In this document: piece after piece, positions 50,236 through 64,000 of the stretch | Layout of the letters: each line of letters opens with the position of its first letter | How positions within the stretch are numbered: position 1 is the stretch's first letter | Assembly: GCA_016932035.1 (NCBI GenBank) | Contig: JAFGDR010000031.1 | Location: 121,984-185,983, forward strand | DNA: 64,000 nucleotides | Source of the DNA: Candidatus Cloacimonadota bacterium | Lineage (GTDB): Bacteria > Cloacimonadota > Cloacimonadia > JGIOTU-2 | Reading direction: 5' to 3' | Program-made: the position numbers and the translations under genes | The notes under the pieces: model-generated | The model's input: only the letters and a program-made list of their open reading frames with translations | Database searches by the model: none | What the model was told of the DNA's origin: nothing

Positions 50236-51255
50236 ATGGTCGTTTCAAAATCCGATCTAATTAAATTTTTCAATTCAATACAGTCAGAATATGAGGTTTA
50301 TGTCCCCCATAAAACTGAGCGGGAAGTTGACGACCTTGTATTTAAAAAATTTGATCCTGAAAAAGATTTTGTCCTCGATAAATACCGCACAGTTGATCCT
50401 GTACGAGCACTTTTTTATATGCCATCAGAAACCGTTCTGCCACCCTCTGCAAAATCAAAGAAAAGAATAATCGCAGGCGTAAAGAATTGTGATCTTATGG
50501 GACTTGCTGTTCTTGATGATGCGCTACTTAAAGATAATTTTGTAGAGCCGAATTATAAAATCTGGAGAGAAAATTCATACATTATAAGTTGTGACTGCAC
50601 GGGGGCACTTCCCACCTGCCATTGCATTTTACTCGATAATAATCCCTATCCTGTAGAAAAAGAAGGTGAAGTGCTTTACGATATTAACCTTTCTCCTGTC
50701 GATGATAAATATATCATAACAATCGGTAGTAAGAAGGGGGAAGAACTCGCAGAAAAACTCAAAGAAGTGTGTACACTCTCAAGTGTAACTGATAATGATA
50801 AAGAGATCCGTGAAGCAAATCGAGCAGAGGTTCTCAAGAAGGTCAGAGACATCAATGCAGATTTTACACCTGACAGAAACTATGATGTGATCACAGAGAA
50901 TAAAGAAGCTGCTACATGGAAAGAATTATGTAATGAATGTGTACAATGCGGTGCATGTACGAATATCTGTCCGACTTGTTATTGTCTTATCCTCAATGAT
51001 GAAAGCACAAATGAGGAATTCAAAAAAGTTCGATCATGGGACTCCTGCCAATTGGTTGGATATGCAGAAGTTGCAGGTGGAGGAACGCCACGCGAACACA
51101 AATGGGAAACATTTAGAAATCGTTATCAATGCAAACATAATTTTATGAAGTTTAATTTCGATAAATTAGGATGCACAGGATGCGGGAGATGTATTTCTGC
51201 CTGTCCTGCTGAAATCGATTTACGAGAAGTTATTCAAAGTTTACAGGAGGTTTAG
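50236..51255 (+). CDS. Sulfhydrogenase-beta-like 4Fe-4S dicluster protein
   Basis: A 339-residue protein resembling the beta subunit of sulfhydrogenases (HydB) and subunit A of anaerobic sulfite reductase. The N-terminal region has the family segments KRIIAGVKNCDLMGLAVLDD and a Cys-rich CDCTGALPTCHC (about residues 118-129). Two ferredoxin motifs follow: CVQCGACTNICPTCYC (about 235-250) and CTGCGRCISACPAEI (about 315-329). In relatives this subunit links a flavoprotein to a hydrogenase or reductase. It is the first gene of the hydrogenase operon (AAAGGA before the ATG) and is followed 1 base later by the matching gamma-like flavoprotein. Alternative: AsrA-like protein, but no siroheme sulfite reductase gene is present. 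Confidence 0.82.
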   Translation: MVVSKSDLIKFFNSIQSEYEVYVPHKTEREVDDLVFKKFDPEKDFVLDKYRTVDPVRALFYMPSETVLPPSAKSKKRIIAGVKNCDLMGLAVLDDALLKDNFVEPNYKIWRENSYIISCDCTGALPTCHCILLDNNPYPVEKEGEVLYDINLSPVDDKYIITIGSKKGEELAEKLKEVCTLSSVTDNDKEIREANRAEVLKKVRDINADFTPDRNYDVITENKEAATWKELCNECVQCGACTNICPTCYCLILNDESTNEEFKKVRSWDSCQLVGYAEVAGGGTPREHKWETFRNRYQCKHNFMKFNFDKLGCTGCGRCISACPAEIDLREVIQSLQEV

Positions 51256-51256
51256 G

Positions 51257-52084
51257 TTGCCAGACAAGAACCCCTACGAAGTATTAAAAGCTGATGTGCT
51301 CGACGTCATCGAAGAATCCCCTACGATCAAATCATTCTATCTCAAACCGGAAAGACCGTTTGAATTTGCTACTGGTCAGTTCATTGAACTTTCATTGCCG
51401 GGAATTGGAGAAGCACCTTTTACGCCTTCATCCTCACATTATGAGAAAGAAAAAATATGGGTTACCATAATGAATGCCGGATTTGTCACCAACCAGATAC
51501 ATAAGGTTCAAAAAGGTGATGTGATGGGAATCCGCGGACCTTACGGAAAAGGATACCCACTCGACATTTTCAAAGGCAAAGATGTTCTCCTCCTTGGTGG
51601 CGGTGTGGGACTCGCTCCGCTTCGTTGTCTTCTCCAGACAATGATACATGATATTAATGATTATAAGAGTATCACAGTTTGCTTTGGTGCCCGTACACCA
51701 GATGATATGATCTATAAAGATCAGATTAAAGATTGGAAAGGCCATGAAAAGATACACCACCTATGTACTGTTGATAAATGTTCTGAAAGCGATATCTGGA
51801 AAGGGAAAACTGGTGTTGTAACTATTCTACTTGATGATATCAAGGTTGATCCTAAAGAAGCCATTGCCGTGGTATGCGGACCTCCTATCATGATGAAATT
51901 CGGAACCTTCTCTTTGCTGGATAAAGGTTTTAAACAAGGAAATATCTACCTCTCAATGGAGAAGAAAATGTATTGCGGTTTCGGGCAGTGCAGACATTGT
52001 GTGATGGGTAAATATTATGCCTGTAAAGATGGTCCCGTGTTCACGTATGAACAAATCAAAGACGAAGAAAAAATCTGGGATTAA
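51257..52084 (+). CDS. Sulfhydrogenase-gamma-like FAD/NAD(P)-binding flavoprotein
   Basis: A 275-residue ferredoxin-NADP reductase-type protein like HydG of sulfhydrogenases, AsrB and PyrK. The FAD-binding barrel contains FATGQFIELSLPG and APFTPSSS (about residues 55-60). The nucleotide-binding half starts with VLLLGGGVGLAPLRCLL (about 111-127) and has AVVCGPPIMMKF near 210. The C-terminus binds a 2Fe-2S cluster through CGFGQCRHCVMGKYYACKDGP (about 239-259). The start is TTG at 51257 with GGAGG 6 nt upstream. It should exchange electrons between NAD(P)H and the beta-like subunit, adding a pyridine-nucleotide module to the membrane hydrogenase. Confidence 0.85.
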   Translation: MPDKNPYEVLKADVLDVIEESPTIKSFYLKPERPFEFATGQFIELSLPGIGEAPFTPSSSHYEKEKIWVTIMNAGFVTNQIHKVQKGDVMGIRGPYGKGYPLDIFKGKDVLLLGGGVGLAPLRCLLQTMIHDINDYKSITVCFGARTPDDMIYKDQIKDWKGHEKIHHLCTVDKCSESDIWKGKTGVVTILLDDIKVDPKEAIAVVCGPPIMMKFGTFSLLDKGFKQGNIYLSMEKKMYCGFGQCRHCVMGKYYACKDGPVFTYEQIKDEEKIWD

Positions 52085-52109
52085 TACATATTAAAGGAAA
52101 GATAGTATC

Positions 52110-52616
52110 ATGAAAAGATTATTTGTAGATATACCTAAGCTTCTGAAAGAAGAAAGTCTCGAATGCATTGATTGTGAATACTTGTATCACGAAGGAGCTA
52201 ATCGCGGTGTATTCTCTATTGTAGAAATTGCTGAATTTGGTGCGTATTGCCGCCAATGCAAAGAATCCTTTTGTATCGAAGCATGCCCAAAGGATGCGCT
52301 TGAACACAGCCCAACCAATATGATCTTACGTCATAATATGCGTTGTGTGGGTTGTAAGAGCTGCACGCTTGCCTGTCCCTTTGGTACGATCTTTCCCGAA
52401 GTCATTAACTATATATCGCAGAAATGTGATTTCTGTTTAAATCAATTGGAAATTGATCCGAACTATGTCCCGCTTTGTGTAAAAACCGCTCCTAACGAAA
52501 CACTTACTATGGTTGATATCGACAAAGATGATCCTGAAAATAATATTTATCTTGTTGGAAGCAGAATGGTGGTCAAGACACATCACTGGCGAAATAAAGT
52601 CGGAAAAAATAAATAG
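52110..52616 (+). CDS. HycB/DmsB-like 4Fe-4S polyferredoxin subunit
   Basis: A 168-residue electron-transfer protein. Cysteine clusters are CIDC (about residue 19), CRQCKESFCIEACP (about 49-62), CVGCKSCTLACP (about 80-91) and CDFC followed by a distant Cys, giving a four-cluster pattern as in HycB, HydN and DmsB-type subunits. The cluster-binding cores sit in the order typical of these proteins, with a C-terminal tail rich in Asp, His and Lys. It probably relays electrons between the HydB-like module and the hydrogenase small subunit. It starts 25 bases after the flavoprotein gene and 28 bases before the proton-channel subunit gene. Confidence 0.82.
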   Translation: MKRLFVDIPKLLKEESLECIDCEYLYHEGANRGVFSIVEIAEFGAYCRQCKESFCIEACPKDALEHSPTNMILRHNMRCVGCKSCTLACPFGTIFPEVINYISQKCDFCLNQLEIDPNYVPLCVKTAPNETLTMVDIDKDDPENNIYLVGSRMVVKTHHWRNKVGKNK

Positions 52617-52644
52617 CATTGGATGATGAGGTTCAGGAGATAAT

Positions 52645-53574
52645 ATGCTAAAATATTTGTTCTATCTGCTCGTGTTCCCGGGCTTTCTCTTTGCATCCGT
52701 ATTCGGACTCATCGTAGGATGGATAGAAAGAAAAGTCAGTGCTCGAGTTCAATTCCGCGTTGGTCCTCCTTTCTTTCAGAATTTTTATGACATATTCAAA
52801 TTGTGGGGTAAAGAGATCATACTGATAAAGAATTCCCCCTATTTCATTTTTATTATTGCTCCAATCATTGCATTTGCATCAGTTATCATATCATCAACAA
52901 TCGTCGGGGTTTCTTTCTTCTACGGCATTGGTATCGGCGGAGATCTTCTCTTTATCATCTACCTGATGGTGATATATTCTGTTGCGATGATCCTTGGCGC
53001 ATCGTCTACCGGTAACATCTATTCCAGTATCGGGGCAGGACGTGAGATGAAGATGCTCATCTCGGATGAACTTGCATTCGTTCTGGTGATCCTCGTTCCG
53101 ATCATCCATGCAGGATATAAAATCAACCTTTCACAAATTTTAGCATATCAAAACGTAAACGGTATGATCATCGGTAGCGCTTCTGGCATTATCGCTTTTA
53201 TCGTTGGCATCATTTGCCTACAGGCAAAGATGGGCATGGTTCCTTTTGATATCGCAGAAGCTGAAACAGAGATCGTCGAAGGACCGCTCATGGAGTATTC
53301 CGGTCCATTGCTTGCGTTCTGGAAACTTGCACATTATATGATGTATGTGTTCCTTCCAATGCTACTCGTTATCCTTTTCTGGGGTGGCATGAGTTTTGCT
53401 TCTTTTGGAACCATTATGGCTGGAATTGGAAAATATCTGCTTGTAGTAGTACTGATGATACTTATCAGGAATACAAATCCTCGCGTTCGTATCGATTATG
53501 CAATAAATTTCTTCTGGAAATGGGCAAGCCCCCTTGCTCTTATCGCCGTAATTCTGGCAATCATAGGAGTGTAA
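52645..53574 (+). CDS. mbhM: Membrane subunit, NuoH/EchB/MbhM type
   Basis: A 309-residue membrane protein with eight or nine helices, homologous to complex I subunit H and to MbhM, EchB and HycD. Conserved segments are GLIVGWIERKVSARVQFRVGPP (about residues 22-43), MLISDELAFVLVILVP (about 136-151) and MGMVPFDIAEAETEIVEGPLMEYSG (about 192-216). In this family the loops contact the small and large hydrogenase subunits and connect electron flow with ion channels. Its position just upstream of the small subunit gene is as in Ech and Mbh operons. AGGAG precedes the ATG. Confidence 0.9.
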   Translation: MLKYLFYLLVFPGFLFASVFGLIVGWIERKVSARVQFRVGPPFFQNFYDIFKLWGKEIILIKNSPYFIFIIAPIIAFASVIISSTIVGVSFFYGIGIGGDLLFIIYLMVIYSVAMILGASSTGNIYSSIGAGREMKMLISDELAFVLVILVPIIHAGYKINLSQILAYQNVNGMIIGSASGIIAFIVGIICLQAKMGMVPFDIAEAETEIVEGPLMEYSGPLLAFWKLAHYMMYVFLPMLLVILFWGGMSFASFGTIMAGIGKYLLVVVLMILIRNTNPRVRIDYAINFFWKWASPLALIAVILAIIGV

Positions 53575-53577
53575 ATT

Positions 53578-53997
53578 ATGGCTTTCTATAATAAAATTAT
53601 TAAAAAATCGATTTGGGTATTTCACGTCAGTGCAAGCCCGTGTAACAACTGCGACATCGAAATTCTTGATCTAATCACACCGGGATATGACGTCGAACGT
53701 TTTGGTATTAAGCTTGTCGGTTCAGCCCGTCATGCTGATGTTCTTCTTGTTACGGGTGTTGTTTCCTATAAAGTTGCACCTCGCATTAAGCAACTCTATG
53801 AACAAGCAGCAAAGCCGCTCTTTGTTGTTGGCATTGGAACTTGTACTGCTGGTGGCGCAACCTTCAAAACGAGTTATAATAAAGCAGGAATACCGCTTGA
53901 AAATGTTATACCGGTCAATGCATACGTCCCGGGATGCCCTCCTAAACCCGAAGCTATGATCGATGGTATAGTAAAATTATTAGGAACGTTAAAATGA
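53578..53997 (+). CDS. mbhJ: [NiFe] hydrogenase small subunit, group 4 (NuoB/MbhJ type)
   Basis: A 139-residue small subunit with a single 4Fe-4S site. The four ligands are in SASPCNNCDIEIL (about residues 20-25), GIGTCTAGG (about 89-97) and VPGCPPKPEAM (about 118-128). It forms the proximal cluster next to the nickel site. The small size, without further cluster domains or a Tat signal, is that of group 4 energy-converting hydrogenases and of NuoB. The large subunit encoded next retains the nickel ligands, so hydrogenase rather than complex I is indicated. The stop overlaps the NuoC-like gene by 4 bases. Confidence 0.9.
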   Translation: MAFYNKIIKKSIWVFHVSASPCNNCDIEILDLITPGYDVERFGIKLVGSARHADVLLVTGVVSYKVAPRIKQLYEQAAKPLFVVGIGTCTAGGATFKTSYNKAGIPLENVIPVNAYVPGCPPKPEAMIDGIVKLLGTLK

Positions 53998-54443
53998 GCG
54001 ACAAAGGCACAGAATTTTTTGATACATTTAAAGATAAGATGACCAAAGTCATCCGCAAACCAAGAAGAAATTACTTCAACATAAAAAACGAAGACCTGAT
54101 AGAGATCGCCGACTATCTTTTCAATACAATGGGCTGCAGGCTTTCGATCTGTACTGCAACCGAGGTGTATGATGGATTGGAAGTACTCTATCATTTCTCT
54201 GATGACAAAACAGGGATTTATTACAATCCGCGTGTAAAAACGAGTCTGGAAAATCCGGAGATCAATTCAATTGCACCAATGATCGCTGGTGCAAACTGGA
54301 TCGAGAGAGAAATGTATGATCTTTTTGGTATTAAGTTCAAGGGACATCCTGATCTGAAGAAATTGCTGACAATCAACAGCCCTCATTTCGGTGAAGATGA
54401 CCATCCAATGCGTTTTAAGCGCAAGCGAACAATAGAGAAGTAA
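53994..54443 (+). CDS. mbhK: NuoC/MbhK-like hydrogenase subunit
   Basis: A 149-residue subunit homologous to the 30-kDa (NuoC) protein of complex I. The diagnostic segment NWIEREMYDLFGIKFKGHPDLKKLL is at about residues 101-125. The N-terminal half is a small alpha/beta domain (FNIKNEDLIEIADYLFNTMGCRLS). It has no cofactor of its own and helps to assemble the peripheral arm. The gene begins inside the small-subunit stop (ATGA overlap) and the large subunit gene follows 22 bases later, the standard order J-K-L of Mbh operons. Confidence 0.88.
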   Translation: MSDKGTEFFDTFKDKMTKVIRKPRRNYFNIKNEDLIEIADYLFNTMGCRLSICTATEVYDGLEVLYHFSDDKTGIYYNPRVKTSLENPEINSIAPMIAGANWIEREMYDLFGIKFKGHPDLKKLLTINSPHFGEDDHPMRFKRKRTIEK

Positions 54444-54465
54444 CAGGTATGCAGAGGAGCATGTA

Positions 54466-55683
54466 ATGAGTAAATGCAGAATTCCTTTAGGACCTTTTCA
54501 TCCATTGTTGGAAGAAGCGGAATTCTTTGATATAAAAGTCGAAGGTGAAAAAGTTGTTGATATTGAAATGGAAACCGGCTGGATGCACAGGGGTCATGAA
54601 AAGATCTCTGAAACCAAATCCTTTACCCAATCGATCTTCCTTGTAGAAAGAATTTGTGGAATTTGTTCGACCTCCCATCCATTCGCAGCAGTCCATGCTA
54701 TGGAAGACATCGATAATGTCGAAATACCAGAACGTGCGCAATATATACGAATTTTTATCGGAGAGATGGAACGAATCCACAGCCATCTGCTCTGGCTCGG
54801 GCTTGCTGGACATTTCATTGGATACGATACCCTTTGGATGTGGGCATGGAAATATCGCGAACCCGTTTTGCAAATATTCGAAAAAGTGTCGGGTAATAGA
54901 AATCACTATGCGATGTTCCGTGTCGGTGGTGTCGGGAGAGATTTTGATAATGATCTGATCCCTGAGATACATCCAATTCTTGATATGATCGAAAAGAAGA
55001 TGCTTATGATAGCAGGCGCAGCACAAGATGATCCGGTACTTCGCTCACGTCTTAAAGGTGTCGGAGTGCTGACCAAAGAAGATGCTATAAATTACTGTGC
55101 TATTGGTCCTACAGCTCGTGCATCTGATGTTGATATAGACGTCAGACGAGATGATCCTCTTGAATATGATCTTGTAGATTTTGATGTTATCGTTTTACCG
55201 AACGGGGACGTTTATGATAAATTAGTTGTTCGTGTACTTGAGATTATTGAATCTGTGAAAATTATCAGACAATGTCTTGACGCATTTCCAAAGATTGGTG
55301 GTGAATATATCAATAAAGTAAAACATATTTCGCCCGGAGAAGGTTGCGGAAGATACGAAGCACCACGCGGAGAAGTATTTCATTATATTAGAAGTGATGG
55401 CTCAAATCGTCCACTTCGTCATAAAGTTCGTGCTCCAAGTTTCTCAAATATTCCAACCTACAAAGCTTCGTGTGTTGGCATTCCGCTTGCAGATGCTCTT
55501 ATCACACTTGCAGCTGTTGACCCATGCTACTGTTGTACCGAGCGCAGCATCCGAGTTATTGATAAAAATAATAAGAAATTAGAACATAATCTATTAACCA
55601 TGTCTCGCCAAAAGACCACACAACTCAAAAGTGACATAGTAGGAAGCGAGAAAACACCCATCGATCGAATTTTTGAAGATTAG
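54466..55683 (+). CDS. mbhL: [NiFe] hydrogenase large subunit, group 4 (MbhL/EchE type)
   Basis: A 405-residue catalytic subunit. Both nickel-binding motifs are intact: RICGIC with Cys64 and Cys67, and DPCYCCTER with Cys354 and Cys357. These motifs are lost in complex I NuoD, so this is a true hydrogenase. About 45 residues follow the second motif. In HycE-type enzymes a C-terminal extension after CTxR is cleaved by a maturation protease once nickel is inserted, and such a protease gene lies at the end of this operon. AGAGGAG precedes the ATG. An extra Cys (356) lies between the two ligands. Reaction: 2 H+ + 2 e- to H2, or the reverse, coupled to ion movement. Confidence 0.94.
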   Translation: MSKCRIPLGPFHPLLEEAEFFDIKVEGEKVVDIEMETGWMHRGHEKISETKSFTQSIFLVERICGICSTSHPFAAVHAMEDIDNVEIPERAQYIRIFIGEMERIHSHLLWLGLAGHFIGYDTLWMWAWKYREPVLQIFEKVSGNRNHYAMFRVGGVGRDFDNDLIPEIHPILDMIEKKMLMIAGAAQDDPVLRSRLKGVGVLTKEDAINYCAIGPTARASDVDIDVRRDDPLEYDLVDFDVIVLPNGDVYDKLVVRVLEIIESVKIIRQCLDAFPKIGGEYINKVKHISPGEGCGRYEAPRGEVFHYIRSDGSNRPLRHKVRAPSFSNIPTYKASCVGIPLADALITLAAVDPCYCCTERSIRVIDKNNKKLEHNLLTMSRQKTTQLKSDIVGSEKTPIDRIFED

Positions 55684-55705
55684 GAATTCAAGAAAGGGTA
55701 TATAA

Positions 55706-57520
55706 ATGTGGAATAATTATCTATTTTTGCTTGTCGTTATCCCGATAATTGCAACCATTATCAGTCTATTTGTACCGACGATCATCAAAAAGCTACTCAC
55801 CCTCGCTTCTGTAATATGGACGCTTATTCTCAGCATTAAGGTTTTCAGTGCAGAAGCACTCAGCTTTGGAATGTTCGGAGCAAATATTTTCCTCACTGAC
55901 CAACTTTCACGATTCATACTCCTGTTCATTAATATTCTCAGTTTGATCATTCTGATCTATTGCCTCAAGAATGTGAAAAAAGACTATGAGGGAAAATTCT
56001 TCCTTCTCTTTGCATTGACGGTAAGTTTCTGTAATGGTGTTGCCCTGAGCGCAAATATGATCGCATTCATTATTTTCTGGGGACTCTCCGGAGCACTTGT
56101 ATACCTGTTTGGAATTTTAAATTCACCTAAGAGTGCCGATAGCTCAAGGAAAGCATTCATTATTATTGGAACATCAGATGTGCTGCTGCTTTTTGGTATG
56201 GTCATTATGTTTGTAATGACCAAGAATCCAAACCTTTATATGGGCAAGATAACACTGTCCAGCGTGATGACCTATGTGGCATTTTTCTGTTTACTTCTTG
56301 CTTCATTTGCCAAAGCAGGTGCATTCCCGATGCATACGTGGCTACCTGATTATGCTAAAGATGCCCCTATCGAAGCAGTTGCAGAACTTCCAGCGGCAAT
56401 GGATAAGCTTCTGGGAATTTACCTTTTTGCACGAATTATGATGAATTTCTTTGCCTATCCGTTTGTAATACAAGCGATCATTATGATACTGGGTGCCTTA
56501 ACGATAATCTTTGCTGTTATGATGGCCCTTGTTCAACATAATGGTCGAAAACTTCTCGGATACCATGCTGTCAGCCAGGTTGGATATATGGTACTTGGTA
56601 TTGGAACAGGGAATCCAATTGGTATTATCGGTGGACTCTTCCACATGCTGAATAATGCAATCTATAAATCAAGTTTATTCCTTTCACTTGGATCTGTGGA
56701 GAAAAGAACGGGAACTTCCGAACTCGACAATCTCGGCGGTCTTGCACGAAAGATGCCCCTCACATTTGTGGCAGCATTGATCGGTGCCCTTTCAATATCG
56801 GGAATTCCACCCTTGAATGGATTCTTCTCGAAATGGATGGTTTACCAGAGTGTTCTGGAAACTGCATCAAAGCATGGTTCGATCTGGCAGATCGTGTTAA
56901 ACCTTTGTTTCGTTCTCGCAGTGTTCGGAAGTGCTCTTACTCTCGCAAGTTTTATCAAATTTATACATGCGATCTTCCTCAGCAAATTGCCAAAGAAATA
57001 TGACGCTGTTAAGGAGATCAGCTTTAATAACTGGATCGCAAATCTGTTGCTTGGAGCACTCTGTGTGATCTTTGGTGTGCTTGTATTTGCAATTCCAGTA
57101 AAGATGTTCTTGCTTCCCATTATTGGCACGGGAACGATTAAAACATTCCTTTTGGGGTTTTACAGTTCAAAGGTCATTCTCTACTTCTTTGCCGCATCAA
57201 TCCTTCTTGGTCTGATCATCTATCTTGTCTTCAAGAAAATCCGTTTTGATGATGAATATGTCGGTACCTATCCCACGACTGAAGCGAATCGTATCACCGG
57301 TGTTGAGTTCTATCAGGAAATCTCGAATATGAGACCGTTCAAGAAGATCTACGAGTGGGCAAATAAGAAATATTTTGATATTTATAAATGGGGAACAGTG
57401 TTTTCCCTGTGGCTTGGCGATGTCTTCCATAAGTTGCATTCTGGTTTATTACACACCTATGCGATATGGACACTCGCCGGTCTGGTGATCGTCACCATAA
57501 TTTTGTTAAGTGCAATTTAG
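55706..57520 (+). CDS. Antiporter-like ion-channel subunit (MrpA-N/NuoL type)
   Basis: A 604-residue membrane protein with about 14-16 helices of the NuoL/M/N-MrpA/D family. The central signature is FAKAGAFPMHTWLPDYAKDAPIEAVAELPAAMDKLLGIYLF (about residues 207-247), with conserved Lys residues in a broken helix. Further segments are NNAIYKSSLFLSLGSVEKRTGTSELDNLGGL (about 313-343) and ALSISGIPPLNGFFSKW (about 361-377). The C-terminal part has a long charged segment and one last helix, resembling an amphipathic lateral element. With the next gene it corresponds to a split MrpA. It should conduct Na+ or H+. Confidence 0.88.
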   Translation: MWNNYLFLLVVIPIIATIISLFVPTIIKKLLTLASVIWTLILSIKVFSAEALSFGMFGANIFLTDQLSRFILLFINILSLIILIYCLKNVKKDYEGKFFLLFALTVSFCNGVALSANMIAFIIFWGLSGALVYLFGILNSPKSADSSRKAFIIIGTSDVLLLFGMVIMFVMTKNPNLYMGKITLSSVMTYVAFFCLLLASFAKAGAFPMHTWLPDYAKDAPIEAVAELPAAMDKLLGIYLFARIMMNFFAYPFVIQAIIMILGALTIIFAVMMALVQHNGRKLLGYHAVSQVGYMVLGIGTGNPIGIIGGLFHMLNNAIYKSSLFLSLGSVEKRTGTSELDNLGGLARKMPLTFVAALIGALSISGIPPLNGFFSKWMVYQSVLETASKHGSIWQIVLNLCFVLAVFGSALTLASFIKFIHAIFLSKLPKKYDAVKEISFNNWIANLLLGALCVIFGVLVFAIPVKMFLLPIIGTGTIKTFLLGFYSSKVILYFFAASILLGLIIYLVFKKIRFDDEYVGTYPTTEANRITGVEFYQEISNMRPFKKIYEWANKKYFDIYKWGTVFSLWLGDVFHKLHSGLLHTYAIWTLAGLVIVTIILLSAI

Positions 57521-57536
57521 TTGTAAGGAGGCTTAA

Positions 57537-58076
57537 GTGCCAGTTGATGTTTGGTTGTACTTTATTTTAGGATTCATGATAATCGGTTCGATTGCAAGTC
57601 TGGAAATAAAGAACATTCTCTCTTCGATCATCACGATTGGTGTGGTCGGACTGGGTTTGTCCTTGGCATTCCTCTTCTTAGGAGCACCGGACCTTGCACT
57701 CGTTCAGTTCGTGTTCGAAATTCTTTGTGTTATAATCTTGATCCGGGCTTTTGCAAAACGTTCGATCGAGGTTCGTGCACTGAAAAGAGATGTGCCGGAA
57801 ACGATCATTGCAATAGTTATCCTGATCAGCATTTTCGTCTTGAGCATATTTGCTTTTAAAGATCTGCCTTCCTTTGGCAAACCCATCGTGCGTGTTGCTG
57901 AACGATACCTGGCTCGAGCAGGTGTGGAAACCGGTTCTCAGAATATCGTCACCTCCGTTATTCTAAACTACAGAATATATGATACCCTCGGTGAAGTCAC
58001 CGTGCTTTTCACAGCGATTTTAGGTGCCTTTACCATATTGCGCAAACAAGGGAGGAAGAAAAGACATGCAGAATAG
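57537..58076 (+). CDS. MbhD-MbhE fused subunit (MrpA C-terminal half)
   Basis: A 179-residue membrane protein combining two modules that are separate in Pyrococcus Mbh. Residues 1-90 match MbhD/DUF4040 (IKNILSSIITIGVVGLGLSLAFLFLGAPDLALVQFVFEILCVIILI). Residues about 135-175 match MbhE (NIVTSVILNYRIYDTLGEVTVLFTAILGAFTIL). Both modules occur at the C-terminus of full-length MrpA. It has about six helices. The start is GTG with AAGGAGG 5 nt upstream, and the end overlaps the MrpB-like gene by 11 bases. It should form part of the Na+/H+ antiporter wing. Confidence 0.85.
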   Translation: MPVDVWLYFILGFMIIGSIASLEIKNILSSIITIGVVGLGLSLAFLFLGAPDLALVQFVFEILCVIILIRAFAKRSIEVRALKRDVPETIIAIVILISIFVLSIFAFKDLPSFGKPIVRVAERYLARAGVETGSQNIVTSVILNYRIYDTLGEVTVLFTAILGAFTILRKQGRKKRHAE

Positions 58077-58515
58077 TTTTCCCAAAGAAGGAATGTCTGT
58101 AATTGTTAAGACAATTACACGTTTCACTGTCTGGTTGATCTTCTTATACGGTTTGTACATCGTTATTCATGGTCACCTTTCACCCGGTGGTGGTTTTGCA
58201 GGTGGAGTGATTATAGCGCTTTCTTATGTCCACCTGACCCTTGCATACGGAAAGAATTTCGTGTTGGAACGCGTTAATAAATTTGCGATGCATAGTCTCG
58301 AAGCAATTGCCGCAATCCTTTTTGTGCTGACCGGTATTGCCGGTTTGTATATATTAGGAAGTTTCCTCGCAAATTTCATGGGCATTGGCAAGCTTTATAC
58401 TCTCATAAGTGCTGGATACATTCCGATGCTGAATATCTTCATTTGTGTGAAGGTAGGTATGGGTCTGTATCTCGTGTTCTATTACCTTGCAAGTTTCAAA
58501 CCCAAGGAAGGATAA
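58066..58515 (+). CDS. mrpB: MrpB/MbhF-like antiporter subunit
   Basis: A 149-residue membrane protein with four helices. The MnhB signature HGHLSPGGGFAGGVIIALSYV (about residues 36-56) is present, with conserved His, Gly and Pro. I chose the ATG at 58066, which gives MQNSFPKEG and has GGAGG 10 nt upstream; the upstream in-frame extension overlaps the previous gene by 50 bases. In Mrp and Mbh this subunit is required for Na+/H+ exchange. The next gene follows 4 bases later. Confidence 0.88.
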   Translation: MQNSFPKEGMSVIVKTITRFTVWLIFLYGLYIVIHGHLSPGGGFAGGVIIALSYVHLTLAYGKNFVLERVNKFAMHSLEAIAAILFVLTGIAGLYILGSFLANFMGIGKLYTLISAGYIPMLNIFICVKVGMGLYLVFYYLASFKPKEG

Positions 58516-58519
58516 GACA

Positions 58520-58864
58520 ATGATATTATATATAATGTGCTTTTTCCTCTTTTTGGTCGGTATATACGGTGCGATCACAAAGAGAGATCTGATTAAAATA
58601 ATACTTGCAATCGGTATCATGGGTTATTCCGTGAATCTTTTCCTCGTGCTACTTGCATACAGGACAGGAGCTCTTGTTCCCATCCTAAAAGAAGGACTCA
58701 ACATTCCTGCAAGCATGATGGTCGATCCTATTCCTCAAGCGCTTGTTCTAACCTCGATCGTGATCGAGCTTGGTATTACAGCTCTTATGGCTGCCCTTGC
58801 GATCAGGATCTATCAAAAATATGATACCTTTGATATTACGAAGATCAGGAGATTACAAGGATGA
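58520..58864 (+). CDS. mrpC: MrpC/NuoK-like antiporter subunit
   Basis: A 114-residue protein with three helices, homologous to MrpC, MbhG and NuoK. Recognisable segments are FLFLVGIYGAITKRDLIKIILAIGIMGYSVNLFLVL (about residues 8-43) and DPIPQALVLTSIVIELGITALMAALAIRIY (about 71-100), the latter containing the conserved Glu used in ion conduction. The ATG at 58520 has AAGGA 7 nt upstream; a frame open further to the left overlaps mrpB. The stop overlaps the MrpD-like gene by 4 bases. Confidence 0.9.
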   Translation: MILYIMCFFLFLVGIYGAITKRDLIKIILAIGIMGYSVNLFLVLLAYRTGALVPILKEGLNIPASMMVDPIPQALVLTSIVIELGITALMAALAIRIYQKYDTFDITKIRRLQG

Positions 58865-60366
58865 TATTATCACAGTTTATTTTCGTTCCACTCCTTGCTG
58901 CGTTTCTGATTGTTCTTTTTGCTCGTAGAAAAGAAAATATTGCTGCTGTCTTTACTCTTGCTGCCACTGCGTGGATATTGATTGTTGCCTTTGTTGCGTT
59001 CTTCAAGCTTCCTGCTAACGGAGGTATGATCCTCAATAATACAAGCGGCTGGAAGATACCTTTTACTATTGCTTTGATCCTGGATAATCTTTCTGCATTT
59101 ATGCTTATCGTTGTGAATCTTGTTGCATTTCTCTCTGCTTTTTATGCGATCCAGTACATCAATCACTTTAACGGGAAATGGAATTTCTTTGCACTCTTTA
59201 TGCTCATGGTAACAGGCATGAATGGTGTGATCCTCAGCGGAGACTTCTTCAATCTCTATGTATTTATGGAAATCTCACTCTACTCTGCATATGCCCTTGT
59301 TGCATTTGGAACAGAGTCTGAGGAATTGGAAGCAGCATTCAAATATGCCACCATGGGCGCGATCACCTCGACAATGATTCTCTTTGGTATCGGCATATTA
59401 TATAGCTATACCTCTACGTTGACCATGGCTGATGTTGGTCTCCACTTAAGAAGTGTAGGGACTCCGAAGCTCATCTTCCTCGTATACGGATTATTTATTG
59501 CTGGTTTTGGTTTAAAGACAGCGCTTGTACCGTTCCATGCATGGCTGCCTGATGCTCATCCATCAGCTCCTGCCCCTATCTCTGCGATGCTTTCCGGCGT
59601 GTTGATAAAAACTCTGGGTGTCTATGCAATCGTACGAATATTTTTCAATGTATTTGGTGCACCAACCGTTGTGCTTCAGATACTGATGTTACTGGGTGTT
59701 CTATCAATAGTTATAGGAGGATTCCTCTCTGTTGTGCAATGGGATTTTAAACGATTGCTTGGATTCAGCAGTATCAGTCAGATTGGTTATGTTATAATTG
59801 GTTTTGCATTGGGAACTCCTCTTGGAATACTCGGCGGTGTGCTACATTTATTCTATCATGCAATCTTCAAATCCTTGCTCTTTTTGGATAGTGGTTCGGT
59901 CGAATATGCAACAGGTACCCGAGATCTCAGACAGCTTGGTGGGTTGTCAAAAGAGATGAAAGTCACGTCATCAACAACAATGATCGGCACGCTTTCAATC
60001 TCAGGAATTCCTCCATTTAATGGATTCTTCAGCAAACTGATAATCATCATTGCATGTATCGCAGCAGGTCAGGTCATTATTGGTATTATTGCCGCTTTAG
60101 TGAGTATTGTAACTCTTGCTTATTTCCTAAAAGTGCAGAAGCATGCATTCTATGGCAAGAAGGGTTCTGCAAAGGTTCTGGAAAAAGTTCCTTTTGCTAT
60201 GAAAACTGCGATGATCATCCTCGCTGCCCTGTGCCTTATCAGCTCTGCTGTTATGATCCCTTCGATAAGAAAAAATTATCTCAATCCCATAGTGGATACC
60301 GTTATGGGAAAGACTTCATATATCGACAAAGTCGAGCCCTATCTTGATAATGGGAGTGTCAAATGA
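58861..60366 (+). CDS. mrpD: MrpD/MbhH-like antiporter subunit
   Basis: A 501-residue protein with about 14 helices of the NuoN/MrpD family. Signature elements are FMEISLYSAYALVAFGTE with a conserved Glu (about residue 138), TALVPFHAWLPDAHPSAPAPISAMLSGVLIKTLGVY (about 220-255), and FHAIFKSLLFLDSGSVEYATGTRDLRQLGGLSKEM (about 330-364). It is a second complete antiporter-type channel in the operon besides the gene at 55706. Pyrococcus Mbh has only one such subunit, while Mrp antiporters have two. Genes on both sides overlap it by 4 bases. Confidence 0.9.
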   Translation: MILSQFIFVPLLAAFLIVLFARRKENIAAVFTLAATAWILIVAFVAFFKLPANGGMILNNTSGWKIPFTIALILDNLSAFMLIVVNLVAFLSAFYAIQYINHFNGKWNFFALFMLMVTGMNGVILSGDFFNLYVFMEISLYSAYALVAFGTESEELEAAFKYATMGAITSTMILFGIGILYSYTSTLTMADVGLHLRSVGTPKLIFLVYGLFIAGFGLKTALVPFHAWLPDAHPSAPAPISAMLSGVLIKTLGVYAIVRIFFNVFGAPTVVLQILMLLGVLSIVIGGFLSVVQWDFKRLLGFSSISQIGYVIIGFALGTPLGILGGVLHLFYHAIFKSLLFLDSGSVEYATGTRDLRQLGGLSKEMKVTSSTTMIGTLSISGIPPFNGFFSKLIIIIACIAAGQVIIGIIAALVSIVTLAYFLKVQKHAFYGKKGSAKVLEKVPFAMKTAMIILAALCLISSAVMIPSIRKNYLNPIVDTVMGKTSYIDKVEPYLDNGSVK

Positions 60367-60866
60367 AGGTAGAAACAAAAAGCAGGATCGTTGTCTTTAT
60401 TCTTTCGATTTTAGTTTGGATATTGATAACAATGGTCTTCAGTATTCCATCCCTGGTTGTGGGTATAGTAATGGCATTGCTTACCGCGATATTTGCCGGT
60501 GAGATGCTCATCATTACTGAACGAAAATTTCGTTTGAAAAGAGTTTGGTATACACTTGAATACCTGGTGAAATTCTTTTGGGAGTTGATCAAGGCAAATT
60601 TCCACGTTGCATACATTGTTATTCATCCTCTTCTTCCGATTAAGCCAGGTATTGTAAAGGTGAAAACAAAGTTAAAAAGAGACTCTGCACTCACCATGCT
60701 TGCCAACTCGATTACCTTAACTCCCGGAACACTAACGGTAGATATCGATGTTGATGATCAGGTTCTGTATGTTCATTGGATCGATGTCAAATCTACCGAT
60801 ATAGAGCAGACGACAAAAGATGTGGGTGGTCGTTTTGAAAAACTACTCGAGGAGATATTTGAATGA
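60363..60866 (+). CDS. mrpE: MrpE/MbhA-like subunit
   Basis: A 167-residue protein with two or three N-terminal helices (about residues 8-48) followed by a cytoplasmic domain. The family motif ANFHVAYIVIHPLLPIKPGIVKVKTKLKRDSALTMLANSITLTPGTLTVDID (about 79-130) is clear, with the nearly invariant LTPGT. MrpE is needed for assembly of Mrp antiporters. Four-base overlaps on both sides show strict translational coupling. Confidence 0.9.
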   Translation: MKVETKSRIVVFILSILVWILITMVFSIPSLVVGIVMALLTAIFAGEMLIITERKFRLKRVWYTLEYLVKFFWELIKANFHVAYIVIHPLLPIKPGIVKVKTKLKRDSALTMLANSITLTPGTLTVDIDVDDQVLYVHWIDVKSTDIEQTTKDVGGRFEKLLEEIFE

Positions 60867-61204
60867 GAGTTTTTAGATGGTTTATCGGTTTACTTATAAT
60901 AGGTGCATTCTTTGTTATAAATTTTGTAGTATTTCCAGAGATTCCCTTTAACTATAAGCTGATCAATGTACTTCTTTTCTGTTCGCTGTTCATACTAATC
61001 CGTGTGGTGAAAGGACCGTCGGTGGCAGACCGTATCGTAGCGATTGATATTCTGGGTATTTTGATCATTGGAATCTGTGCGATCCTGGCAATTGCCCTTG
61101 AGCGTTCATATTTTATAGACATCGGTATTGCATGGGGTCTTCAAAGCTTTATTGGAGCCATGGCTCTTGCAAAGTTCTTAGAAGGGAGGTCCCTCGATGC
61201 ATGA
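60863..61204 (+). CDS. mrpF: MrpF/MbhB-like subunit
   Basis: A 113-residue protein with three membrane helices. The typical block RVVKGPSVADRIVAIDILGILIIGICAILAI (about residues 47-77) contains the conserved Asp-Arg and Asp residues of MrpF. YFIDIGIAWGLQSFIGAMALAKFLEGR closes the protein. It overlaps mrpE by 4 bases and mrpG by 8 bases. Confidence 0.9.
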   Translation: MRVFRWFIGLLIIGAFFVINFVVFPEIPFNYKLINVLLFCSLFILIRVVKGPSVADRIVAIDILGILIIGICAILAIALERSYFIDIGIAWGLQSFIGAMALAKFLEGRSLDA

Positions 61205-61556
61205 TCTTGCAATCAATCAGATAATTGGTTATATTATTATTTGCGGTGGTATTTTGTTCGATCTTTTTGGGGTACTGGGTCTGGTTCGTCTTCCTGATGT
61301 GTATAACAGGCTTCAGGCTGCAACGAAAAGCGTTACCTTCGGCTCTGCTGGAATTCTTATTGGTGTATTGGTATATTCAGGATTTACTGCAATGGGATTT
61401 AAAGCGCTTCTCTGTGCAATCTTTATACTTCTTACATCGCCTGTTTCTGCCCATGCTATTGCCAAAGCAGCTCATAAAGCAGGGATCAAAATGACTGATA
61501 AGACAATCATCGACCTGTATCGTCAGGATAAAGACAAGAATGAGGAACAGAAATGA
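61197..61556 (+). CDS. mrpG: MrpG/MbhC-like subunit
   Basis: A 119-residue protein with three helices. The MrpG signature DLFGVLGLVRLPDVYNRLQAATKSVTFG (about residues 22-49) is well preserved, followed by LTSPVSAHAIAKAAHKAG (about 79-96). The basic, charged C-terminus is cytoplasmic. It overlaps both neighbours and completes the antiporter set B-G. Together with the genes at 55706 and 57537 all seven Mrp functions are represented. Confidence 0.9.
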   Translation: MHDLAINQIIGYIIICGGILFDLFGVLGLVRLPDVYNRLQAATKSVTFGSAGILIGVLVYSGFTAMGFKALLCAIFILLTSPVSAHAIAKAAHKAGIKMTDKTIIDLYRQDKDKNEEQK

Positions 61557-62164
61557 TTATTCCAAAACTTCGAGAATTAGGCGAAGCAATCGTCTCACTT
61601 TTTTCTAAACCAATCACAAGCAAATATCCTTTTACAAAAAAACCCTATGAACCCGTTAAGCAGTTCAAAGGTAATCCAATATATAATGAAGATGAATGCG
61701 TTGGATGCGGAGCTTGCGCCCAGGTATGCCCTGCCGGTGCAATCAAAATGATCGACGAACCTGAAGAAGGCAAACGCATTATGCAGGTGAGTTATACGAA
61801 TTGTATTCGATGTGGGCAATGTGAAGAACACTGTATTACTAAAAAGGGAATAAAGCTCTCTAATGAATATATAACAGCTACTTTCAGTCCTGCGTGGGAA
61901 GCCGATATGATGAGTATTGAGAAGAAACTCATTGTCTGCCCGATCTGTGGAACAAAAATCGCAACTGAAGATCACATGAACTGGCTTATTGAAAAGATGG
62001 GTCCAAAAGCGTATGGAAATCCAAATCTTCTTGCTTTCATTCAACTTCGCTATCAGGATCTTCCGGAAGCGCACATAAAGAAAGATAAAATCAGAAGAGA
62101 AGATTATTATAAGTTAATGTGTCCACGCTGTAGGCACCAGGTTGTTGTCGAAGATGCTTTCTGA
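61553..62164 (+). CDS. NuoI/MbhN-like ferredoxin subunit
   Basis: A 203-residue hydrogenase subunit with two 4Fe-4S sites: CVGCGACAQVCPAGAI (about residues 46-61) and CIRCGQCEEHCITKKGI (about 83-99, with Ile replacing the usual Pro). The C-terminal 70 residues add a CPICGTKI pair and a CPRCRHQVV pair, which look like a zinc-ribbon or rubredoxin-type site not present in classical NuoI. It should relay electrons from ferredoxin or from the HydB-like module to the small subunit. The start overlaps mrpG by 4 bases, and the protease gene starts inside its last codons. Confidence 0.85.
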   Translation: MIIPKLRELGEAIVSLFSKPITSKYPFTKKPYEPVKQFKGNPIYNEDECVGCGACAQVCPAGAIKMIDEPEEGKRIMQVSYTNCIRCGQCEEHCITKKGIKLSNEYITATFSPAWEADMMSIEKKLIVCPICGTKIATEDHMNWLIEKMGPKAYGNPNLLAFIQLRYQDLPEAHIKKDKIRREDYYKLMCPRCRHQVVVEDAF

Positions 62165-62635
62165 TGAGTTGAAAAATCTATTTTCTTCAATCAAAAATAA
62201 AAATACCCTTTGCGTAGGGCTGGGAAATTATCAACGCGGCGATGATGCTGTGGGACTCTATATTGTCGACAATCTGCAGAAGAAATGTAAAAAAAAAAAC
62301 TTACATATCTGATCGCAGAAACAACTCCTGAGAATTATTTGAATATCCTTACATCAACTGGTCTCGATACAATTATCTTTTTCGATGCATGCAGATTCTC
62401 CCAAAGAGAAGGTGATGTGAAGATATTAGATGAAGAAGAGATCAGTACATTTGCTACATCAACTCATACAAGCTCACATGGATTGATAATATCATATATA
62501 CATAAATTTTCAAAAGCAGTGATTTATGTTATCGGAATCTGTATTGTAAAATCTTCACACTCTCAAAATATGTCAGAGAATGTAAAAAAAAGTGCCGATG
62601 AACTTATAGGTTTAATACAACATGCAGTATGCTGA
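62154..62635 (+). CDS. Hydrogenase maturation protease, frameshifted at an A11 tract
   Basis: The frame from the ATG at 62154 encodes LCVGLGNYQRGDDAVGLYIVDNL, the HycI/HyaD maturation-protease start with the nickel-ligand Asp, but stops at TGA 62310-62312. The rest of the protein is in another frame: YLIAETTPENYLNIL, then TIIFFDACRFSQREGD and STHTSSHGL with the conserved Asp and His, ending at 62635. The switch occurs at eleven consecutive A (62289-62299). One extra A gives a normal 160-residue enzyme. The large subunit of this operon carries a C-terminal extension that needs such a protease. Transcriptional slippage, a sequencing error or a recent mutation are possible explanations. hypF starts 14 bases before its end. 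Confidence 0.8.
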
Positions 62636-64000
62636 GATAATCCTAACCGGCATTGTTCAGGGCGTTGGATTCCGTCCTTTCGTAAAAAGGACAGCATTGA
62701 AGCACAATATTAAAGGATTTGTTGAAAACAGGGAATTCGGAGTGAAGATCATATCTCAGGCTTCAAAAAATACGATACAAAAATTTCTTGATGACCTATT
62801 GAACGCTGCTCCGGACGTTTCTACGATACTTACCCATTCGATAACATTTGGTGAAACCGAAGATGTATTTAACACATTTGATATTTCTCCCAGCAAGAAA
62901 AAGGGTGAGGTATCAGCACTTATTCCACCGGATATTGCAACATGCGAGGTTTGCGCGCAGGAGATTCTTGATAAGAATGACAGGCATTATCAGTACCCAT
63001 TTACTAATTGCACGAATTGCGGTCCACGATTTTCGATCATACAAGCCATTCCTTATGATAGAAAAAACACAACCATGAAGAAATTCGTTATGTGTGATCA
63101 CTGCAACAGGGAGTATACAACCGTTACAGATAGACGTTTTCACGCACAGCCCAATGCCTGTCCAAAATGCGGTCCCGAGCTTAGACTGATAGAGATCATC
63201 GATGATGAACAAACAATCATTGCTCAAAGAGAGCAGGCACTGGATAAAACAATATCGTTATTACAATCGGGCGAAATCGTTGCAATAAAAGGAATTGGAG
63301 GTTATCACCTTGTTTGCACTACTTTACAGCAAGAGACAGTTGATAAGTTGAGAAAGCGCAAGTACAGACCAAATAAACCATTTGCACTCATGGCACGGGA
63401 TATCGAGACGGTTAAAGAATACTGTATGGTAAGCGAAGCCGAAGAACGAATGCTGACCGGTCAACAGAAACCGATCGTGTTACTCAAGAAAAAAAATGAA
63501 CAGCTTGAACATGTTGCTCCCGGTGTGAAGGATCAGGGTTTTATGCTTCCGTACACACCTCTTCATTATCTTCTTTTTAAGCATTTTCGAATCCTTATCT
63601 TTACAAGCGGGAACATTTCAGAAGAAGCGCTGGAAAACAAAGACGATAGTGCATATGAGAGACTTTTTCATATAACACCTTATTACCTTTCATACAATAG
63701 AGAAATATTCAACAGGATCGATGACTCGATCGTAACCTTTGCACATGATCAGAATATATTGATACGAAAAGCTCGTGGATTTATACCAAAACCGATCAAT
63801 ATAGAAAAGAGATTCGGCAAACCGCAGATATTTGCTGCAGGTGCTGATATGAAGGGTTCGTTTGGGCTAACAAAAGAGAATATATTTCTTGGCAGCCAGT
63901 ACTTAGGTGATCTTGAATTCTCTTCAAATCATACTTTTTACAAAGAATCTCTTCAATATTTTAAATCGATTTTTGAGATGAATCCACAGGTTGTTGTTGC
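62622..64000 (+). CDS. hypF: Hydrogenase maturation factor HypF, partial
   Basis: The first 459 residues of the carbamoyltransferase that makes the cyanide ligands of the [NiFe] site. The acylphosphatase domain starts with ILTGIVQGVGFRPFVKR (residues 7-23). The zinc-finger domain has CEVC, CTNCGPRFSII, CDHCNREY and CPKCGPEL in order (about 108-185). The YrdC-like domain contains GEIVAIKGIGGYHLVC (about 214) and RKRKYRPNKPFALMARD, and the Kae1-like domain begins near AAGADMKGSFGL. The gene runs off the right edge. The ATG at 62622 overlaps the maturation-protease gene by 14 bases, so other hyp genes may follow outside the window. Confidence 0.95.
   Translation, partial: MQYAEIILTGIVQGVGFRPFVKRTALKHNIKGFVENREFGVKIISQASKNTIQKFLDDLLNAAPDVSTILTHSITFGETEDVFNTFDISPSKKKGEVSALIPPDIATCEVCAQEILDKNDRHYQYPFTNCTNCGPRFSIIQAIPYDRKNTTMKKFVMCDHCNREYTTVTDRRFHAQPNACPKCGPELRLIEIIDDEQTIIAQREQALDKTISLLQSGEIVAIKGIGGYHLVCTTLQQETVDKLRKRKYRPNKPFALMARDIETVKEYCMVSEAEERMLTGQQKPIVLLKKKNEQLEHVAPGVKDQGFMLPYTPLHYLLFKHFRILIFTSGNISEEALENKDDSAYERLFHITPYYLSYNREIFNRIDDSIVTFAHDQNILIRKARGFIPKPINIEKRFGKPQIFAAGADMKGSFGLTKENIFLGSQYLGDLEFSSNHTFYKESLQYFKSIFEMNPQVVV

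Follow-up and report, generated by a model that had tools for sequence, protein, structure and literature searches.

We analysed a window of 64,000 nucleotides (C31:121984-185983) from a 2.44 Mb draft genome, 95% complete, of a Candidatus Cloacimonadota bacterium. Between positions 50,236 and 62,164 of the window lies a single operon of 16 genes, all on the plus strand, with intergenic gaps that range from a few bases up to about 30, or with small overlaps. The genes are arranged in the order hydB-hydG-wire-nuoH-nuoB-nuoC-nuoD-MrpA/NuoL-type antiporter-mbhDE-mrpB-mrpC-mrpD-mrpE-mrpF-mrpG-HycF-type gene, where "wire" denotes a small HycB/CooF-like iron-sulfur protein, and are followed downstream by a gene for a HycI-type protease and then by hypF. 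The operon combines a sulfhydrogenase-type HydB/HydG pair (HydBG) with a membrane-bound [NiFe] hydrogenase and an Mrp-type antiporter arm. We consider it likely that it encodes an ion-translocating group 4g [NiFe] hydrogenase, probably reversible, that uses the nicotinamide cofactors NAD(P)(H) as electron partner and follows the building plan of formate hydrogenlyase.

An original prediction, made from the DNA letters without database searches, had recognized HydB-like and HydG-like subunits in this operon, and profile as well as structure comparisons bore this out. Among the NCBIfam models the HydB-type protein scored best with ShyB (142 bits), followed by HydB (121) and AsrA (111), all far under the equivalog cut-offs. 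The HydG-type protein reached 221 bits with both AsrB and PRK08345 and 182 bits with HydG, likewise under the NCBIfam equivalog cut-offs. The closest solved structures were chains B and C of Pyrococcus furiosus sulfhydrogenase 1 (9nez, Table 1), with alignments that span nearly the full length of both proteins and with the cofactor ligands kept. In HydB, cysteines 85, 121, 128, 130, 235, 238, 241, 245, 248, 250, 271, 313, 316 and 319 are invariant in 39 of 39 orthologues. In HydG the [2Fe-2S] ligands C240, C245, C248 and C256 are kept in 40/40 and the motifs GGGxGxAP and RGPxG are conserved; the HydG sequence motifs do not separate NADH from NADPH.

The ligands along the remaining electron path are similarly intact. 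The eight main cluster cysteines of the wire protein occur in 43/43 sequences and its third set (C22/C106/C109/C123) in 40-41 of 40-42; the cluster ligands of NuoB are invariant in 49-50 of 50 orthologues. The predicted Ech/Mbh-type core with all four nickel cysteines was confirmed: C64, C67, C354 and C357 of the large subunit are present in 50 of 50 orthologues from many phyla, and its closest solved structure is P. furiosus MbhL (6cfw_L, E 1e-82). The large subunit is of the NuoD type, has two CxxC motifs for the Ni-Fe site and is accompanied by NuoB and NuoH partners, which places the enzyme among the group 4 [NiFe] hydrogenases. In the terminal HycF-type subunit the ligands of both clusters are invariant in all complete sequences, as are four further cysteines within a C-terminal extension.

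For the membrane arm, both antiporter-type proteins that had been predicted were found, as were all of the MrpB to MrpG homologues. One correction applies: the first antiporter (604 residues) corresponds to the N-terminal portion of MrpA, and the MbhDE fusion (179 residues) to MrpA positions of about 602-768. Together they form a split MrpA, such that the set of seven Mrp subunits, MrpA to MrpG, is complete. A structure model of the MrpA-like subunit (mean predicted local distance difference test score, pLDDT, of 80.7) matched MrpA best (7qru_A), with HycC at rank 3 (7z0s_C) and chain X of Mbs also among the matches. In complex I and Mrp a glutamate in the fifth transmembrane helix (TM5) is central to proton transfer. 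This glutamate is kept in all MrpD sequences compared, whereas the MrpA-like subunit carries FWG instead of FWE in all orthologues but two (L040, L045); its D158, located in the helix after TM5, is invariant. Since the TM5 glutamate is missing, the MrpA-like half may function differently, as far as its sequence tells.

The genes named in the earlier list are all present (Table 1), but the HycB/CooF-like wire and the HycF-type subunit had not been singled out there. The region, which had been extended to 62,635, also needed correction at its end, where a HycI-type protease gene in two frames is followed by hypF from about 62,622. A promoter scan returned sites that were no commoner than in shuffled sequences.

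Table 1. Genes of the hydrogenase operon and the genes directly downstream (window positions).
Feature	Position	Strand	Evidence
hydB-like Fe-S electron-transfer subunit (sulfhydrogenase beta / AsrA type)	50236..51255	+	9nez_B E 3e-31; invariant Cys
hydG-like FAD, NAD(P), [2Fe-2S] subunit (sulfhydrogenase gamma / AsrB type), TTG start	51257..52084	+	9nez_C E 3e-50; motifs kept
HycB/CooF-like wire, Cys sets for three [4Fe-4S]	52110..52616	+	cluster Cys conservation
NuoH/MbhM-like membrane anchor	52645..53574	+	PF00146 E 1e-65
NuoB/MbhJ-like small subunit, proximal [4Fe-4S]	53578..53997	+	PF01058; Cys 22, 25, 89, 120 invariant
NuoC/MbhK-like subunit	53994..54443	+	PF00329
NuoD/MbhL-like [NiFe] large subunit, C-terminal tail after DPCYCCTER	54466..55683	+	four Ni Cys, 50/50
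MrpA N-terminal / HycC-like antiporter subunit, TM5 Glu to Gly (FWGLSG)	55706..57520	+	Foldseek best MrpA 7qru_A
MbhD-MbhE fusion, MrpA C-terminal part	57537..58076	+	PF13244, PF20501; MrpA positions ~602-768
MrpB/MbhF-like; true start probably ATG 58066	58024..58515	+	PF04039
MrpC/MbhG-like; true start probably ATG 58520	58487..58864	+	PF00420
MrpD/MbhH-like antiporter subunit, TM5 Glu kept	58861..60366	+	profile and TM5 comparison
MrpE-like	60363..60866	+	PF01899
MrpF-like	60863..61204	+	PF04066
MrpG-like	61197..61556	+	PF03334
HycF-type Fe-S subunit, two [4Fe-4S] and C-terminal CxxC..CxxC metal site	61553..62164	+	Foldseek best HycF 7z0s_F
HycI-type maturation protease, N/C halves in different frames meeting at A11 run 62289-62299	62154..62635	+	
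hypF start, continues beyond window end	62622..64000	+	by eye from translation

To see how firmly hydBG are linked to the hydrogenase, we scanned 84,980 species genomes with the large subunit and obtained 49 loci at ≥57% identity. The carriers are mostly uncultured bacteria from more than 10 phyla, including Cloacimonadota, Marinimicrobia (Fidelibacterota), KSB1, Ignavibacteriota, Calditrichota, Aminicenantes, metagenome-assembled genomes of Thermotogota, Elusimicrobiota, Atribacterota, WOR-3/Stahlbacteria, Planctomycetota and Aerophobota. In 38 of the 49 loci hydB and hydG lie upstream of the core genes in the same order, and in two more they are found on the same contig, separated from the core by an inserted complex. 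These two, C. antarcticus (L004) and NIOZ-UU1 (L013), were considered as cases of hydBG loss, which was rejected: both genes lie upstream, behind an inserted Ehr/Mrp/NfnB complex. In the other nine loci (L014, L020, L021, L033, L035, L037, L044, L046, L048) the contig reaches less than 4.6 kb beyond nuoD on the upstream side. Among them, L037 retains hydG, with hydB cut off by the contig end, and the genome of L021 carries hydB-hydG-wire-nuoH on a further contig, at its end. All nine downstream genes were present in 28/28 loci with at least 8 kb of downstream sequence. Within 124 Cloacimonadota genomes, 28 of 34 full-length nuoD genes share their contig with a HydG of the same clade; five of the other six (G061, G100, G109, G099, G066) are cut by contig ends, and the sixth is taken up below. 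With gene order kept across phyla, chance is not an issue, and the gene-order comparison proposed with the original prediction came out in its favour.

Phylogeny agrees with the gene order. The HydG proteins of the operon form one clade with a Shimodaira-Hasegawa-like approximate likelihood ratio (SH-aLRT) support of 99.9, apart from the HydG of group 3b hydrogenases, from the HydG of other Cloacimonadota gene clusters and from P. furiosus HydG. Across 20 loci, the pairwise distances of hydG and nuoD correlate at 0.93 and those of hydB and nuoD at 0.91, which is within the range among the core subunits, and none of 2000 permutations gave values as high. In the NuoD tree P. furiosus MbhL and E. 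coli HycE appear as very long branches inside the clade, and their placement was not used; the Muribaculaceae rows of this tree lack the Ni motif where checked.

The source genome provides no evident other partner for HydBG. It encodes a single HydB and one close HydG (two further matches are only 28-33% identical), and its only two NiFe large subunits are that of the operon and a VhuA-like one of type 3c. A group 3b hydrogenase (HydA/HydD), an FeFe hydrogenase and AsrC (top hit 31.5 bits, cut-off 324) were not found in this genome; given its completeness, the absence of another partner is strong but not absolute. The conserved linkage and the lack of another evident partner thus leave standing the idea, central to the original prediction, that the sulfhydrogenase-type module belongs to the Mrp-linked membrane hydrogenase; taken as a whole, the original interpretation is partly supported. 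Other Cloacimonadota (L091, L092, L093) hold a separate HydB-HydG pair, which in L091 lies near genes for a FAD-dependent oxidoreductase and a YeeE-type sulfur transporter.

An architecture for such a complex is suggested by E. coli formate hydrogenlyase (group 4a), in which HycB and HycF carry electrons from the formate dehydrogenase to the hydrogenase and HycF contacts both HycB and FdhF (PMC9474812). The operon shares with it a HycB-like wire, a HycF-like subunit with a CxxC metal site, a HycC-like antiporter and a HycI-type protease. It differs in having HydBG instead of FdhF, a full Mrp set in addition and no molybdopterin enzyme. A model of the HycF-type subunit (mean pLDDT 75.8, predicted template modelling score, pTM, 0.65) matched HycF best in Foldseek (7z0s_F, E 4e-11; 7z0t_F with a TM-score of 0.79 over the target), whereas MbhN followed at rank 15. 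The HycF-like rather than MbhN-like fold, together with the conserved HycB-like protein, is the arrangement of a complex to which an input module docks. By analogy, HydBG would take the place of the formate dehydrogenase. A precedent for the joint operation of an input module with a group 4 hydrogenase and an Mrp arm is Fdh2-Mfh2-Mnh2 of T. onnurineus, which unites the same three parts in one cluster but has a formate dehydrogenase as input (PMC8965080).

Other known systems share parts of this inventory. P. furiosus Mbh (group 4d) has the same J, K, L, M and N-type core subunits and an MrpB-G-type arm, but lacks HydBG and a HycB-type wire; the operon in turn has a second antiporter subunit, and its HycF-type subunit replaces MbhN. 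The Mbh arrangement, in which ferredoxin-type input enters via MbhN with no further input subunits, is therefore not what the operon encodes. With sulfhydrogenase 1 (group 3b, 9nez) the likeness is confined to HydB and HydG homologues with conserved ligands: HydA/HydD are absent, the hydrogenase part is of group 4 and membrane-bound, and HydG falls into a separate clade. AsrABC differs by its siroheme subunit AsrC, which is not found here.

The original prediction had considered the combination one that could not be named. This holds in part. The large subunit shares 93% identity with that of Ca. Celaenobacter antarcticus, and 92-93% when other Cloacimonadota are included, which marks the source as a Celaenobacter-like member of the phylum. 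The Celaenobacter enzyme, from the same or a near genus, is described in the available passages of its report as H2-evolving, Mrp-linked and of group 4g (PMC8542988), and this published orthologue suggests 4g membership for the present enzyme; the Mrp link is common to both. In these passages the enzyme is read as ferredoxin-driven, and HydBG, the HycB-type wire and the HycF-type subunit are not mentioned (PMC8542988). A group 4 hydrogenase with Mrp-like subunits, cooF, asrA, asrB and a molybdopterin enzyme was reported in 2019 from Saganbacteria RX5A, where it was proposed to include an oxidoreductase module and called enigmatic (PMC6349859). That region comes from one genome, and its molybdopterin oxidoreductase is absent from our operon (PMC6349859). 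In the literature searched, which left out subscription journals and supplements, we found no published description of HydBG-4g-Mrp as a conserved operon type.

In the mechanism that we favour, NAD(P)H would bind to HydG with its flavin (FAD) and [2Fe-2S] cluster, and electrons would pass through the HydB clusters, the HycB/CooF-like wire, the HycF-type subunit and the proximal cluster of NuoB to the Ni-Fe site, or along the same route in reverse. Conformational coupling through NuoH would drive the Mrp-type arm (split MrpA and MrpB-G), resulting in Na+/H+ exchange. Potentials near -280 mV for NADH, -414 mV (standard) for H2 and near -500 mV for ferredoxin are given in PMC9304861 (abstract). 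H2 evolution from NADH is thus uphill unless H2 is very low, and forward pumping from NADH is unlikely. The complex could either reduce NAD(P)+ with H2 while pumping, or form H2 from NAD(P)H, provided that very low H2 or the ion gradient pulls the reaction. The source genome encodes RnfC, such that the ion gradient and the ferredoxin/NADH pools are probably interconvertible.

Several observations weigh against this reading. NADH (about -280 to -320 mV) provides too little energy for H2 formation at ordinary pressure plus pumping. Gene neighbourhood is indicative of functional linkage, not of contact. In one Cloacimonadota genome (G107, contig C99; L100/L122), the sixth case above, SudBA-like genes lie directly upstream of nuoD-nuoL-mbhDE-mrpB, and hydBG and nuoHBC are missing from the contig, which may be a chimera or a true variant. 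Finally, in C. antarcticus and NIOZ-UU1 hydBG are separated from the wire gene by an Ehr complex that includes an NfnB-type fusion, and HydBG could serve this inserted complex too.

The published view of group 4g, a ferredoxin-driven pump similar to Mbh, would have ferredoxin feed the clusters directly, with HydBG as a side outlet that makes the enzyme a ferredoxin:H+/NAD(P)+ branch point. Ferredoxin offers sufficient energy for pumping, the wire protein is itself ferredoxin-like, and ferredoxin is assumed for the Cloacimonadota Mbh in PMC8542988. HydDB lists 4g as "ferredoxin-coupled (putative)" with its role undetermined (PMC5037454). We nevertheless regard this as unlikely: the terminal Fe-S subunit resembles HycF, with its extra C-terminal metal domain, and not MbhN; the HycB-like protein, which sits at the input site in formate hydrogenlyase, is conserved in the operon; and HydBG were nowhere seen to be dispensable, G107 possibly excepted. 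Less probable still is a reading in which HydBG act on their own as a soluble NAD(P)H-dependent reductase, co-transcribed with the membrane complex but outside it. Co-transcription alone cannot show contact, and other gene clusters of relatives do hold soluble homologues. Against this reading stand the strict linkage to one hydrogenase type over more than 10 phyla, the single HydG clade, the one copy in the source genome, and the position of a gene for a HycB-type adaptor, which separates hydBG from the core genes. That HydBG act as an AsrAB-type or sulfur-reductase module, in a complex with H2 or NADH as electron donor and sulfite, polysulfide or elemental sulfur as acceptor, is very improbable despite AsrB scores as high as those with HydG models and the sulfur reduction known for sulfhydrogenases (PMC8542988 and PMC5317091), since the catalytic subunit AsrC was not found in the genome and the operon lacks any sulfur-handling gene.

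A NAD(P)(H)-linked enzyme, as we propose, would have consequences beyond this genome. The same gene set in more than 10 bacterial groups makes it more likely that the 4g class is driven by NAD(P)H than by ferredoxin. With somewhat less confidence than for the single enzyme, we lean towards the view that an NAD(P)H module was added to complex-I-type cores on at least two occasions, once as NuoEFG and independently as HydBG on an Mrp-linked hydrogenase, and that enzymes now labelled ferredoxin-coupled 4g are widespread two-way NAD(P)H:H+ oxidoreductase pumps whose direction follows the H2 level. Should a link to NAD(P)H hold for many 4g enzymes, metabolic models would change for Cloacimonadota, Marinimicrobia, Ignavibacteria, Atribacterota, Aminicenantes and others. 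Such anaerobes could draw on an ion gradient to release H2 from NADH or, in the opposite direction, use H2 both to form NAD(P)H and to build up an ion gradient, in either case with no need for an electron-bifurcating hydrogenase. A complex-I-type core with an independent arm for NAD(P)H input would also be useful for understanding the evolution of complex I.

Some further features were noted around the operon and in relatives. A membrane pyrophosphatase gene (PF03030, 880 bits; 47683-49887, minus strand) adjoins the operon in divergent orientation. An Mrp-linked complex with a NuoI-NfnB-type fusion (592-619 residues, PRK13984-like) occurs at L083 (G124:C5), at L084 (G125:C204) and on another contig of the source genome (G000:C39, L097). 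Its NuoD-like subunit lacks the Ni motif, as observed in L004 and L013. In two genomes this complex is the one inserted between hydBG and the wire gene, once together with a CoA-disulfide-reductase-like gene.

In 8 of 8 genomes of the genus (L105-L112) and in G119, a run of 10 to 12 adenines marks a break of the HycI-type protease gene into two frames; in other genera it lies in one frame. The halves are offset by -1 in seven of the eight despite the varying run length, which makes sequencing error hard to invoke and suggests, at the sequence level, conserved frameshifting or polymerase slippage at the poly-A run.

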